Part shown: positions 10,300 to 61,255 of the stretch, piece by piece
Layout of the letters: each line of letters begins with the position of its first letter
Numbering within the stretch: position 1 is the first letter of the stretch
Source: a virus
Reading direction: 5' to 3' (one strand)
Length of the DNA: 64,000 nt
IMG/VR virus record: IMGVR_UViG_3300019889_000014
Coordinates: 1 to 64,000 of that record
The notes under the pieces: generated by a model
What the model was told of the DNA's origin: nothing
What the model saw: only the letters and a program-made list of their open reading frames with translations
The model's database searches: none
Program-made: the position numbers and the translations under genes

Positions 10300-10636
10300 G
10301 GAGTTACAAAAGCCGGGACGGCGTAACCCCGGTTGTCACCCCCTCCGTAACCCCGGAGCGGCACCTAATAAATAAATAAAATCAATATATTATATTATAT
10401 ATATATAGATAGGGTTACAGGGTTACAACGATATGCAGGTGTTTATATATATAGGTCTCGTTATCTCTCACACGGTCACTATATATATACCTCCTCGGAA
10501 GCTGTAACCCTGTAACCCCTCCCCCGGAAATTCCATCTAAGGCATTGATTCGTCTAGCAAAAAAGGCGGTTACAGAAGGGGTGACTTTGGGGTTACAAAA
10601 CCGGGCCGAAGGCCCTGAAACGGCCCAAAACAGGGG
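10300..10636. other. candidate replication origin: iterons flanking an AT-rich island
   Basis: An intergenic region in a GC-rich genome with an AT-rich core (about 10365-10490, runs of TATATA and AATAAATAAATAAA) bordered by GGGTTACA-type repeats in both orientations. These include a direct pair GGGTTACAGGGTTACA near 10413, an inverted pair TGTAACCCTGTAACCC near 10502, and single copies near 10302, 10322, 10346, 10568 and 10588. Similar variants (GTGAC, GTCAC) also occur. It lies between the HTH gene and the P-loop ATPase. The arrangement is that of an iteron origin with a duplex-unwinding element. Confidence 0.7.
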
Positions 10637-56834: not shown

Positions 56835-57950
56835 TCAGTCGTCGATCTTCACGCCGAGGCGCGGGTCGATCGCCTTCGCACCGACCAGGAGGTCGAGCGA
56901 GATGGTGTCGACCTTGGAGTTCACGTCGTAGCCCTGCACGACGCGGATGCCCATGCCGTTGCCGCGGATGTAGCCGGCGCTGGCCGCACCCTGCGGCAGT
57001 TCCAGCGGGACCACAGCCAGGGCGAAGGCGTTCGGGTGGAACGCGATGGCCGAGGTGCCGGAGCCGGCGCCAAAGGTGATCGCCGCACCATCGGCGAAGC
57101 CGCCGGCCGGCGCCTGCGGCGCGAACGCCACAACCGCCACGGCGCCGGTGCCGTCGACCGTGTACGTGTTGGTCACGGTGAAGGTGCCGACCACGCCGGC
57201 CACCGTGAACGCCGTGCCATTCGGCAGCAGGCCGGCCGCAGTGGCGCCGTCGATCGCCATGGCCTGGGCGCCGGCCGCGACCGCGCCGTTGATGGCGGGC
57301 ACGCCGCCCGGCCCGACCGCCTTGCCGATGTTCTGGCTCATGTACCAGTCGATGCCCATGATGTGGCCCAGCGAGGCGTTGCGCAGGGCCTGGCCGCCAT
57401 CAGCGCGGGTCGCGGCGTTGTGGACGGCGTCGATGCCCATCATCGCGGCCTTGATCTTCGGGCTGACGATGGAGTTGCGCGGGGCCACCGGCACCCGGTT
57501 CTCGTTCAGCGCCAGGTCGATCAGCGCCAGGTCGTTCAGCGTGGTCATGCCGGCCACGGTGACGATGCTGGTCAGCTGGGTCGCCTTCGACAGCAGGTAG
57601 CGGTCGACGCCCTCGGCAATGGCCAGCATCGCCGGCTGGACCAGCTGGGTGGAGAAATCTTCCAGCTCGAGGGTCCACTGCTTCGAGGTGACCTGGAAGG
57701 TCACGTCGAAATGCTTCTCCAGCACCAGCGGGATGCCGGTCTCCTGCGCGTTCTGGATGACGACCGCGCCGGTGAATTCCTGGGCGGTGAAGGTCGCCGG
57801 CTTGCGCACGGTGATGGTATCGCCGACCTTGGCGCCGGTGAATTCGGTGACGTAGTCCCGATACACCAGCTGTGCGGCCACGAGGTTGCTCTGGAGCACC
57901 ATCAGCGCTTCCTGCGCAATGATGCTCGGCGTCAGAAAGACGTTGGGCAT
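56835..57950 (-). CDS. major capsid protein (P22-coat-like)
   Basis: A 371-residue protein with the P22 coat pattern: VFLTPSIIAQEALMVLQSNL, VGDTITVRKPATFTAQEFTG and LVLEKHFDVTFQVTSKQWTL near the start, then FHPNAFALAVVPLELPQGAA and VQGYDVNSKVDTISLDLLVG at the C-terminus. It forms the capsid shell. A scaffold-like gene lies directly upstream and a strong terminator directly downstream. Confidence 0.92.
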   Translation of the reverse strand: MPNVFLTPSIIAQEALMVLQSNLVAAQLVYRDYVTEFTGAKVGDTITVRKPATFTAQEFTGAVVIQNAQETGIPLVLEKHFDVTFQVTSKQWTLELEDFSTQLVQPAMLAIAEGVDRYLLSKATQLTSIVTVAGMTTLNDLALIDLALNENRVPVAPRNSIVSPKIKAAMMGIDAVHNAATRADGGQALRNASLGHIMGIDWYMSQNIGKAVGPGGVPAINGAVAAGAQAMAIDGATAAGLLPNGTAFTVAGVVGTFTVTNTYTVDGTGAVAVVAFAPQAPAGGFADGAAITFGAGSGTSAIAFHPNAFALAVVPLELPQGAASAGYIRGNGMGIRVVQGYDVNSKVDTISLDLLVGAKAIDPRLGVKIDD

Positions 57951-58021: not shown

Positions 58022-58807
58022 CTACCGCGACTGCGCTCCCCTGGACTCCCGCCACTTCGCGTATTCGACGGGGTTCATTTTCGCGACCTGATCCGGCGTG
58101 ACAGAGCCGCGCTGGCCGCCGCCATCGGTGCCGCCGCCACCCTTGGGTGCGGGCCACCAATGCGGTGCCTTCTCGCGCATGCTGGTCAGCCATTCCTCCA
58201 GCGTCATCGGGCCATCAGCGCCGACGCTGTCGTCCTTCGGGTACGGCTTGCCCTCCTTCACGGTGAAGGCGACACGACCACGGAAGACGGCGTCGTCTAC
58301 GGCTGACGGAAGCAGGCCGAGATCGGCTGCGGCTTTGCGCAGGCCGCCATCAAGAACAAGTACGGAGATCTGCTCGGCCAGGCCGGAGATTTCCTTGTCC
58401 TTGGCGGCAACGGTCTCGGACAGCTTCGTTTTCTCGCGGGAGAATCCATCCTGGAGGGACTTCGTCTTCTTGTTGACGTAGCCCTCGATGTCACCCTTCG
58501 CGAGGAGCTTGGAGTCCTCGTCCTTCTCCATCCGCTCGACGAGCGACCGGACGGTTTCGGGATCAACGTCTCCAAACTTGCCCAGCGCCTCGCGCGCCGT
58601 CTTGACCTCGCCGAGCAGTTCGTCGCGCTTGGCGGCGAGCGGCTTGGTCGCATTCTCGACGGCGGCGCGGACCAGCGCCTGAATCTCTGGATTGTTCGGA
58701 TCGAGTTTCGGAGCCGGGTCGCCGCCGCCGCCTCCTGTGCCGCCGCCTCCGGCGGGGTCATCAGCGGGCGCAAGCAGTTGCAGGCTCAATGGGGAGCGTA
58801 GGTACAC
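58022..58807 (-). CDS. capsid scaffold protein
   Basis: A GTG start with AGAGGACGGCT upstream gives 261 residues. The product is Gly/Pro-rich at the N-terminus, highly helical and charged in the middle (ATKPLAAKRDELLGEVKTAR, FSREKTKLSETVAAKDKEIS), and ends in a Gly-rich linker plus a basic helix (VEYAKWRESRG). This is the form of phage scaffolds. Its position before the capsid gene supports the call. Confidence 0.85.
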   Translation of the reverse strand: MYLRSPLSLQLLAPADDPAGGGGTGGGGGDPAPKLDPNNPEIQALVRAAVENATKPLAAKRDELLGEVKTAREALGKFGDVDPETVRSLVERMEKDEDSKLLAKGDIEGYVNKKTKSLQDGFSREKTKLSETVAAKDKEISGLAEQISVLVLDGGLRKAAADLGLLPSAVDDAVFRGRVAFTVKEGKPYPKDDSVGADGPMTLEEWLTSMREKAPHWWPAPKGGGGTDGGGQRGSVTPDQVAKMNPVEYAKWRESRGAQSR

Positions 58808-58946: not shown

Positions 58947-58975
58947 AGTTAGACCCAAATTGGGTACAAAGTCAA
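58947..58975 (-). promoter_or_regulatory. promoter with operator-like site H
   Basis: Minus strand: -35 TTGACT (58975-58970), 17-bp spacer, -10 CTAACT (58952-58947), facing the scaffold-capsid genes. The spacer holds AGACCC-AAATT-GGGTAC (58951-58967), a copy of the operator palindrome. A plus-strand TACAAA box could also serve the macrodomain gene, but its -35 is poor. Confidence 0.55.
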
Positions 58976-59045
58976 CAATCCTGCCCCAGGTCTTGTGTCC
59001 CGGAACTGTAATCGGGCAGGCTATGGGGCAACCAAGGGGGACGTG

Positions 59046-59498
59046 ATGGGATTCAAGTACCTGCCAGGCCAGAATATCGTCGATGACGACGCCGAGCTGC
59101 TGGTCAACACCGTGAATTGCGTCGGGGTCATGGGCAAGGGTGTCGCCCTCGCTTTCAAGACCCGCTGGCCGGGGATCATGGCGCCGTACAAGGCCGAGTG
59201 CCGGATGGGCCTTCGTCCCGGCGCCTGCCCAATCCATCGCCTCCCCGGCGGCCGGCATTGGGCCGCCCTTGCCACCAAGGATCACTGGCGCGACCCGAGC
59301 CGCATCGAATGGGTTGGCGCCGGCCTCGCCGTTCTGGCCGGCAGCGCCAAGGTCATGGGCATCAAATCCATCGCCCTGCCCCCGCCAGGCTGCGGCAACG
59401 GTGGGCTCGACTGGCGCCAGGTCGAGCCCATCGTGCTCGCGGTCTTGTCCGGCTTCGATGTCCGGATCTATGCCGAGCCGGCTACCGCAGCAGGGTGA
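59046..59498 (+). CDS. macrodomain protein, DarG-like
   Basis: The start at 59046 has AAGGGGGA upstream. The 150-residue protein is one macrodomain: LLVNTVNCVGVMGKGVALAF (18-37), LATKDHWRDPSRIEWVGAGL (75-94) and SIALPPPGCGNGGLDW (108-123). The TKDHWR block, with Lys78, aligns with the catalytic-lysine region of DarG, which removes ADP-ribose from thymidine in DNA. It stands alone, without DarT. It lies on the plus strand inside minus-strand head genes and is convergent with the next small membrane gene. Confidence 0.88.
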   Translation: MGFKYLPGQNIVDDDAELLVNTVNCVGVMGKGVALAFKTRWPGIMAPYKAECRMGLRPGACPIHRLPGGRHWAALATKDHWRDPSRIEWVGAGLAVLAGSAKVMGIKSIALPPPGCGNGGLDWRQVEPIVLAVLSGFDVRIYAEPATAAG

Positions 59499-59664
59499 CG
59501 CCCGGCAGCAGGCTCAGCAGGTAGAGCAGCAGCACGATGATGACCAGGACCATGATCGCGGTCTTGATCCATTGGTCGATCGGCAGGGTTCGGACCAGCC
59601 ACATGATCAGGCCGGCGATGATCAGGATGACGATGAGGTTGATCAGCAAGGCAACCGGGAACAT
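59482..59664 (-). CDS. small two-helix membrane protein, 60 aa
   Basis: The start at 59664 has GGTGGAG upstream. The 60-residue product consists of two hydrophobic helices (LLINLIVILIIAGLIMWLVR and AIMVLVIIVLLLYLLSLLPG) split by a short polar loop. It resembles the Thivi_2564-type small membrane proteins. The 3' end overlaps the macrodomain gene by 17 bases in convergent orientation. Holin-like or exclusion role is speculative. Confidence 0.7.
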   Translation of the reverse strand: MFPVALLINLIVILIIAGLIMWLVRTLPIDQWIKTAIMVLVIIVLLLYLLSLLPGVTLLR

Positions 59665-59681: not shown

Positions 59682-59714
59682 GGGTTACGGGACGGGTTAC
59701 GCGGGGGGTTACGG
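59682..59714 (+). repeat. three GGGTTACG repeats upstream of the GNAT-like gene
   Basis: GGGTTACG at 59682, 59694 and 59707, spaced 12-13 bp, ending two bases before the GNAT-like start codon. The unit matches the GGGTTAC core of the putative origin iterons. Confidence 0.7.
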
Positions 59715-59715
59715 G

Positions 59716-60153
59716 ATGGTTTGCGGACACGAGGTCGTGACCGAGGTCGCCGCGCTGATGCGGCGGCTGGACGAGGTCATCGTCGAGGCTGAGGCCGACG
59801 CCGAACGTGGTGAGCGTCGCCTGGTCGTCCGGCGCGAGATCCGCACCGATCACGTCCGGCTCTATGTCCGTGTTGGCCTGCGCGGCGTACCCGATTCCCG
59901 GTACGCGGCCCGAGCGCTGAGCCTGGTCGACATCACCATCGACGAGGACTACCGAAGCCGCGGCATCCTGCACCTGACCATGGCCTGGCTGGAGCAGCGG
60001 CGGGTGTTCGACGGGATCTACATCGAGAATGTCTTCAACGACCGGCTGGTCGCGTTTCTGCAGCGCCGGGGCTACCAGTCGTTTCCGGCATCCGTGGCGC
60101 CGATCGCCGGGTCGTGGTGGCGCCGGCATCCGCCTACAACCCCGCCCGCTTGA
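59716..60153 (+). CDS. GNAT-like acetyltransferase
   Basis: The start at 59716 is chosen because the upstream part of the frame is antisense to the membrane gene and shadows the macrodomain gene. The 145-residue product has the GNAT motif A form (LVDITIDEDYRSRGILHLTM, where Q/RxxGxG/A is weakly kept) and a motif B-like end (IENVFNDRLVAFLQRRGYQS). A modified acetyltransferase is likely. Its 3' end overlaps the convergent MuF-like gene. Confidence 0.65.
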   Translation: MVCGHEVVTEVAALMRRLDEVIVEAEADAERGERRLVVRREIRTDHVRLYVRVGLRGVPDSRYAARALSLVDITIDEDYRSRGILHLTMAWLEQRRVFDGIYIENVFNDRLVAFLQRRGYQSFPASVAPIAGSWWRRHPPTTPPA

Positions 60154-61255
60154 ACGCATCGGCTTCACGGGCGCGCAGCTGGTCGAGCGTGTATTCCTTC
60201 CCCGAATAGTCGACGAAACTGTCCATCGACAGCTTGCCGTCCAGGTACAGCTTGGCCCTGGTCGGCCCGAGGACTTCGCGGACGAAATCGACCGGCTGGG
60301 TTCGCAGCCAGTCGTTGTAGGACAGGTCGCCCGGCACCTGCGTGATCAGCCTGTCGCGCTGGTCCTTCGGGATCTTCGACACCGGGACCGTCGCCCGCAC
60401 TGCGGGCCGCTCGCCCGGCCCGATCTCCGGGATGTCGAGGCCGAGTTCCCGCCAGGTCTTCAGGACCGGGACCGTGGTCGACCGGCAGCGCCGATGGGCC
60501 GGCGGCCGAGGTCCGTGGCCGAGCGGGTAGATCTTGCCGTCGCGCGACCGGCACACCGCCGAGGTCCGGCCGTCCAGGGTCGACACCCAGCGGACGGCTT
60601 TGATCAGGTCGGCGTTCTCGCGGTAGACCAGTTCCCGCGCCGACGACGCGACGCCGTTGACCGCCGTCCGGACCAGGTTCTCGACTTCGCTGTAGGTCCG
60701 GTTCAGCCCCTCCTCTCGGATGCGCCGGATGATCTGCGGCGTGGTCTCGCCGGTGACGTAGCCTTCCCGGATCGCGGCGATGACGCGGGCGCCCTCGGCG
60801 TCCGTCATGGCGTTGATCTCGTCGCGCAGCAGCCGCCCGATGAACGGCCGGTTCGACACCGCCGCCCGCAGCTGGGCCGGCGCCACCATCGCCACGTCGA
60901 GGACGATGCCGAACCCGGTCGCAAGCTGGGCCGCCTGGAACGTGCCCTCATAGGCCGCCAGGTCGCGCAGCGCCGCCGTCAGGTCGCCGTTGAGAACGTC
61001 ACGGGTCGACTTCTGGAGAGCCTGGATCTCCTCGCGCAGCGCCTGCAGCCGCTGGGTCGTCCAGTTCGGCGTCGGGATCTCGGCCGCATCCCTCGCCGTC
61101 AGGGCTTCGAGGCGGGCGCGGATTTGGCTCGCGAGGCGACTGTCGGCGGCGTGTAGCAGCTTCAGGACGCGCCGGAGCGTGCCGGCGCTGTACCGGAGCA
61201 GGTACACCATGTGGCGGGCGGCCACGTCGATCGCCAGCGCCTCTTGCGGCGTCAT
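60134..61255 (-). CDS. MuF-like head morphogenesis protein
   Basis: A 373-residue protein: a helical N-terminal portal-associated part, then the MuF-type domain (LVRTAVNGVASSARELVYRE, VSTLDGRTSAVCRSRDGKIY, GPRPPAHRRCRSTTVPV). MuF proteins are minor capsid proteins packaged with the head. Follows the portal gene as usual. Confidence 0.9.
   Translation of the reverse strand: MTPQEALAIDVAARHMVYLLRYSAGTLRRVLKLLHAADSRLASQIRARLEALTARDAAEIPTPNWTTQRLQALREEIQALQKSTRDVLNGDLTAALRDLAAYEGTFQAAQLATGFGIVLDVAMVAPAQLRAAVSNRPFIGRLLRDEINAMTDAEGARVIAAIREGYVTGETTPQIIRRIREEGLNRTYSEVENLVRTAVNGVASSARELVYRENADLIKAVRWVSTLDGRTSAVCRSRDGKIYPLGHGPRPPAHRRCRSTTVPVLKTWRELGLDIPEIGPGERPAVRATVPVSKIPKDQRDRLITQVPGDLSYNDWLRTQPVDFVREVLGPTRAKLYLDGKLSMDSFVDYSGKEYTLDQLRAREADAFKRAGL

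Follow-up and report, generated by a model that had tools for sequence, protein, structure and literature searches.

A stand-alone DarG/TARG1-type macrodomain carried as accessory cargo by a probably temperate phage: a possible counter to DarT-type ADP-ribosylation of DNA

Phages commonly carry macrodomains as accessory genes without an explained function, and predictions in the literature favor small-molecule targets over a simple anti-DarT idea. A survey found macrodomains in phages of every size class (~4.5% of the small, 40% of the medium, and 56% of the jumbo ones), noted that their genes can sit among virion genes, and argued that the proteins target mostly small ADP-ribose derivatives, while a few may counter DNA ADP-ribosylation (PMC9503650). 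DarG, TARG1, and SCO6735 each cleave thymidine-linked ADP-ribose from DNA (PMC9411070). The macrodomain of Thermus aquaticus DarG (TaqDarG) by itself rescues from DarT, and this rescue is abolished by K80A; the K80A protein is inactive and N22A is impaired (PMC5179494). Of the known anti-DarT factors, AdfB is a DarT-binding protein of 77 aa for which no enzymatic activity is predicted, and AdfA is believed to work in the same way (PMC11481870). We analyzed a macrodomain gene in a 64,000-base stretch (the window) of a phage record from IMG/VR that is 64,022 bases long. Relatives of its product were found in 227 of 50,697 phage records, every one less than 60% identical. Given this count and the published survey, the gene type is not new, and the same holds for the idea that it opposes DNA ADP-ribosylation. 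The present analysis adds evidence of its accessory nature from comparison with a sister phage, and places it not among DarG antitoxins but in a rare clade that is DarT-free and partly SLOG-fused. Because the DarG active site is kept, the toxin-binding half is absent, and some relatives are fused to SLOG domains, the gene is a compact case that pits both ideas against each other.

The macrodomain ORF begins with ATG and is preceded by a good ribosome-binding site (AAGGGGG). An alternative GTG start at 58995 would give a protein of 167 aa; however, homologues align from residue ~3-10. The product matched Pfam Macro above the family cut-off (E = 2.9e-10), PADLOC DarG (E = 1.2e-46), and PHROG 335, annotated as "phosphatase" (E = 6e-32), to which it belongs as a phage-encoded single domain. 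Only positions 8-141 of the 329 in the DarG profile were matched, so the protein lacks the second half of DarG; it stops at residue 150, straight after the macrodomain, and the C-terminal domain with which DarG binds and blocks DarT is absent. By sequence, the best PDB matches were two DarG macrodomains, 5m3i from M. tuberculosis (E = 8e-30) and 5m31 from T. aquaticus (E = 2e-25). Structure prediction, which had been proposed as a check, yielded an AlphaFold2 model (pLDDT 95.8, pTM 0.90) with 5m31, 5m3i, and 5m3e as the top Foldseek matches (TM 0.88-0.89), followed by DarTG of Thermosipho and then TARG1, with SCO6735 also ranked; the nearest structures were thus DarGs and not those of non-DNA families. 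Among the scanned ORFs of the window, none matched DarT, KptA, 2H, RNA ligase, NADAR, SLOG, or sirtuin. The original prediction of a phage-encoded stand-alone macrodomain of the DarG type was therefore borne out by profiles and model alike.

The active site was mapped through an alignment with 5m31, using the TaqDarG residues that bind ADP-ribose or had been tested for activity, namely Asn8, Leu9, Thr20, Asn22, Lys29, Val31, Gln34, Thr79, Lys80, His82, Trp83, Gly117, Gly119, Asn120, and Gly121 (PMC5179494). The phage equivalents, in the same order, are Asn10, Ile11, Thr22, Asn24, Lys31, Val33, Ala36, Thr77, Lys78, His80, Trp81, Gly115, Gly117, Asn118, and Gly119. Thirteen of the 15 positions are identical, the changes being Leu9 to Ile11 and Gln34 to Ala36; Ala36 is the single clear active-site change, and relatives vary widely at this position. 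All catalytic residues of TaqDarG are kept, and most of those that contact ADP-ribose are kept as well. The TKDHWR and GCGNGGLDW blocks and the likely catalytic Lys78, all noticed earlier from the sequence, are present, and Lys78 coincides with the catalytic lysine of TaqDarG. The phage protein is an ALC1-like macrodomain with equivalents of Lys80, Asn22, and the GxGNGG loop, the combination that marks DarG. It is very probably an ADP-ribosylhydrolase, and its sequence gives no reason to doubt catalysis.

These results leave more than one candidate substrate. Because DarG, TARG1, and SCO6735 span the class and all cleave thymidine-linked ADP-ribose, this linkage is the best single guess. Alternatively, the macrodomain could de-ADP-ribosylate protein or RNA modified by another host transferase, such as a protein-directed ART or a CmdT-like RNA transferase. 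TARG1 and SCO6735 act also on protein Glu/Asp-ADP-ribose, and TARG1 acts on phosphate-linked ADP-ribose at RNA or DNA ends (PMC9411070, PMC11833690); however, DarG is described as inactive on protein and the phage protein is nearer DarG than TARG1, and we regard this alternative as unlikely. Many homologues, for example that of phiEco32, are annotated as "phosphatase" or "Appr-1-p processing", which would suggest an enzyme that processes Appr-1''-p, a by-product of RNA repair. Those names derive from old family labels, though, and this role, which we find hardly credible, was rejected on the grounds that its partner genes (KptA, 2H, RNA ligase, and polynucleotide kinase) were not found among the scanned ORFs of a record that may lack its ends.

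The macrodomain gene is oriented opposite to the flanking minor-head and scaffold genes (Table 1). The membrane-protein gene is convergent with it and overlaps its 3' end by 17 bases, and the GNAT-like ORF in the same gap had no Pfam or PHROG matches. We compared this region with contig L048, a sister phage whose coat, scaffold, and minor head proteins are 79%, 80%, and 83% identical, respectively. The flanks of the macrodomain site are 80.5% and 83.5% identical in DNA, and the 80.5% identity breaks off at window position 58975, which leaves 71 bases to the start codon of the macrodomain gene. The head genes of L048 are intact and its GNAT-like ORF lies in the same gap in the same orientation, and both the macrodomain gene and the membrane-protein gene are missing. 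Because it is absent from L048 despite flanks that are ~80% identical, the macrodomain gene is accessory (moron-like) cargo, in agreement with the earlier view of an opposite-strand moron inside head genes. A conserved cargo slot holding the same gene across related phages was considered and rejected, as distant head-module relatives carry other content. In one such relative (L053:3223-8226), the minor-head homologue is a polyvalent protein of 1,667 aa with long added domains.

Table 1. Features at and around the macrodomain gene (window coordinates)
Feature	Position	Strand	Basis or remark
Major head (coat) protein, P22 type	56835..57950	-	Pfam PF11651 E = 1e-37; PHROG 283 E = 3e-69
Head scaffold protein	58022..58807	-	PHROG 206 E = 7e-37
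Near-palindrome ACCCAAATTGGGT, candidate operator	58953..58965		Upstream of macrodomain gene; aligned with ACCCAGATCGGGT in L048
Stand-alone DarG/TARG1-type macrodomain	59046..59498	+	150 aa; sequence profiles, AlphaFold2, Foldseek
Asn24 codon (TaqDarG Asn22, substrate positioning)	59115..59117	+	Invariant in 50/50 aligned sequences
Lys78 codon (TaqDarG Lys80, catalytic lysine)	59277..59279	+	5m31 alignment; invariant in 50/50
GCGNGGLDW loop gripping ADP-ribose, residues 115-123	59388..59414	+	Alignment
60-aa membrane protein	59482..59664	-	PHROG 23151 E = 6e-4; absent from L048
GNAT-like ORF, same gap as macrodomain	59716..60153	+	By eye; 42% identical counterpart in L048
Minor head/head morphogenesis protein (Mu F-like)	60134..61255	-	PHROG 241 E = 8e-122

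Scans for sigma-70 promoters and terminators around the macrodomain site found none. Near-palindromes of the kind listed in Table 1 number 12 within the window against 6.8 expected, which is not clearly above chance. Seven GGGTTAC/GTAACCC repeats lie in an intergenic region at ~10.3-10.6 kb (window 10323-10590), and three GGGTTAC repeats with 12-base spacing lie directly upstream of the GNAT-like ORF (59682-59712); these repeats are perhaps operators of one phage regulator. The phage also encodes a tyrosine integrase, RecT, YqaJ, and repressor-like HTH genes, and is probably temperate. No terminase was recognized among the scanned ORFs, and given this and its length, the record may be incomplete. 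When the host was sought through a prophage search, the best coat-protein match was 38%, in 1 of 385 genomes. Morons are often expressed in lysogens, and with an integrase and repressor-like genes in the same phage, the macrodomain could serve the lysogen as an antitoxin-like gene expressed from the prophage that shields the host or the prophage when DarT-type toxins or competing elements come in. However, relatives are also found on plasmids, so a general mobile-element role fits equally, and we consider service to the lysogen very unlikely.

The seven closest relatives, 58-66% identical, belong to Alphaproteobacteria and their plasmids: three are on Sphingomonadales plasmids, two on Microvirga contigs, and one each on contigs of Croceicoccus and Camelimonas. 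DarT adjoins none of the seven. Most bacterial homologues at 40-50% identity adjoin DarT; 83 DarTG rows were included in the first tree. A tree of 64 rows placed the phage protein and its seven relatives in a DarT-free clade of 8 with support of 100/91, and this clade contains none of the DarTG antitoxins. Forcing the phage protein together with alphaproteobacterial DarGs cost 85 log-likelihood units and was rejected (p-AU 0.0009), the group for this AU test having been picked only after the first tree had been seen. The idea of a DarG descendant tied to DarT was not supported, and a DarG that lost its DarT is not supported by the tree or by the AU test. At E <= 0.001, no DarT was found in four genomes with the closest chromosomal relatives, and two true-DarG comparison genomes were positive; selection by DarT was therefore not directly seen. 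Within the class that holds the closest relatives, 385 genomes were sampled and 19 of them had DarT, so this defense is within reach of the likely hosts. A denser sample of ~600 genomes of two orders added no clade members, which indicates that the clade is rare. A scan of IMG/VR for DNA resembling ATK[DE]HWRDP, made for further viral members, gave three contigs (L205-L207), of which L205 and L207 are the same as L019 and L005, previously placed outside the clade.

Several loci with macrodomain-like genes had features of their own. In Microvirga tunisiensis (L091:6709-7284, minus strand), a small protein that is ADP-ribosyltransferase-like by eye (FHTTPVGAIETIRTSGLEPRD) adjoins the stand-alone macrodomain gene; it had no Pfam or PHROG matches and was not used as evidence. 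In Sphingobacterium phlebotomi (L101:7602-9041), a single ORF of 479 aa matches both DarT and macrodomain profiles, with a short DarT part, and is possibly a DarT-DarG fusion or a frame-shifted pair. Viral contigs L171 and L175, and also L173, which is cut at the contig end, have DarT-profile ORFs of ~440 aa, twice the usual length, adjoining DarG-like genes.

Two of the plasmid relatives (63-64% identical), Erythrobacter aureus WP_115418205 and Sphingosinicella WP_129393031, are fused to an N-terminal DprA-like, phage-type SLOG domain (PHROG 768, E = 4e-52 and 3e-46), and the Croceicoccus relative has a long C-terminal extension with no assigned domain. The plasmids with the two fusions (408 kb in Erythrobacter and 347 kb in Sphingosinicella) have a common neighborhood of ClpX, RNase H, the SLOG-macro fusion, and many small genes, which looks phage-plasmid-like. 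Since the clade is separate from DarTG antitoxins, has no DarT partners, and includes such fusions, small ADP-ribose signals are as much indicated as DNA marks. Instead of acting on DNA adducts, the macrodomain could degrade or capture a soluble molecule that NAD-based defenses (Thoeris-like, RES-type, or others) derive from NAD as a signal or toxin, for example ADP-ribose 1''-phosphate or an isomer of cyclic ADP-ribose. Nucleotides of this sort are ligands or substrates of SLOG domains, and a joint action of Macro and SLOG domains of phages against small ADP-ribose signals has been predicted (PMC9503650). The absence of DarT from the examined genomes of the clade is consistent with this, as is the presence, ~2 kb from the Camelimonas copy, of an Xre/MbcA antitoxin recognized by Pfam and of a toxin gene that by eye looks like RES. 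However, the active site is of the DarG/TARG1 type, no SLOG/DprA gene was found in the phage window, and the RES link comes from a single locus. The SLOG link makes a small NAD-derived signal a serious alternative, albeit one that we consider somewhat improbable.

The reading that we tentatively prefer, and to which we give a little short of an even chance, is that the protein is an active ADP-ribosylhydrolase used in counter-defense, its most likely target being the thymidine ADP-ribosylation of DarT-type enzymes or the mark of a similar DNA-directed transferase. A host ADP-ribosyltransferase defense would mark the phage DNA after infection, most likely with the thymidine mark of DarT2-type toxins. 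The single-domain DarG/TARG1 (ALC1-like) enzyme, brought along as accessory cargo and expressed in time, would then strip ADP-ribose from the phage DNA with Lys78 as the catalytic residue, and could thereby protect against DarTG. Erasure of the mark is proposed rather than blocking of DarT because the protein lacks the C-terminal domain of DarG. We counted for this reading the DarG-nearest structures, the kept residues, the rescue by the TaqDarG macrodomain alone, the cleavage of thymidine-linked ADP-ribose by DarG, TARG1, and SCO6735, the presence/absence pattern between the sister phages, the occurrence of DarT in the sampled genomes, and the lack of KptA, 2H, RNA ligase, NADAR, SLOG, sirtuin, and DarT matches among the scanned ORFs. 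Counted against it were a clade without DarTG antitoxins, the rejected grouping with alphaproteobacterial DarGs, the SLOG-macro fusions, whose architecture PMC9503650 connects with soluble ADP-ribose signals, the DarT-free genomes of relatives, and the view of that paper that small molecules are the usual targets of phage macrodomains. Taken together, the original prediction of a possible anti-DarT protein stands with regard to the DarG-type fold, the intact residues, the stand-alone form, and the moron-like location, but not with regard to DarG descent, and stand-alone macrodomains are common in phages rather than special to this one. A broader suggestion, possible but doubtful, is that the DarT-free clade is a dedicated anti-ADP-ribosylation counter-defense family, that is, an enzymatic, mark-erasing anti-DarT factor unlike the binding-type AdfA and AdfB, coupled in some members to a SLOG sensor.

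Compared with known systems, the phage protein is like DarG of DarTG2 (TaqDarG and MtbDarG; 5m31, 5m3e, 5m3i) in fold, catalytic Lys, Asn, and GxGNGG loop, at ~40% identity, but DarG has the C-terminal DarT-binding domain and an adjacent darT, and belongs to another clade. SCO6735 and TARG1 (ALC1-like) are stand-alone like the phage protein and cleave thymidine-ADP-ribose, but are only 19-25% identical, and SCO6735 lacks the catalytic lysine that the phage protein has. The stand-alone phage macrodomains of PHROG 335 (phiEco32 gp37, phiKZ-like phages, and Erwinia jumbo phages) share the profile and the single-domain form, yet are less than 50% identical among the matches listed and have a different gene neighborhood where seen; the phiEco32 gene, for example, adjoins a sigma factor and metabolism genes. 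Such macrodomains fall in several places in the trees. The SLOG-macro fusions of the Sphingomonadales plasmids belong to the same clade and have a macrodomain that is 63-64% identical, but carry an N-terminal SLOG domain that the phage protein lacks. AdfA (T4/RB69 group) and AdfB (ICP1 Gp145) have the role proposed here, that of a phage counter to DarTG, but are not described as macrodomains (PMC11481870), unlike the phage protein.
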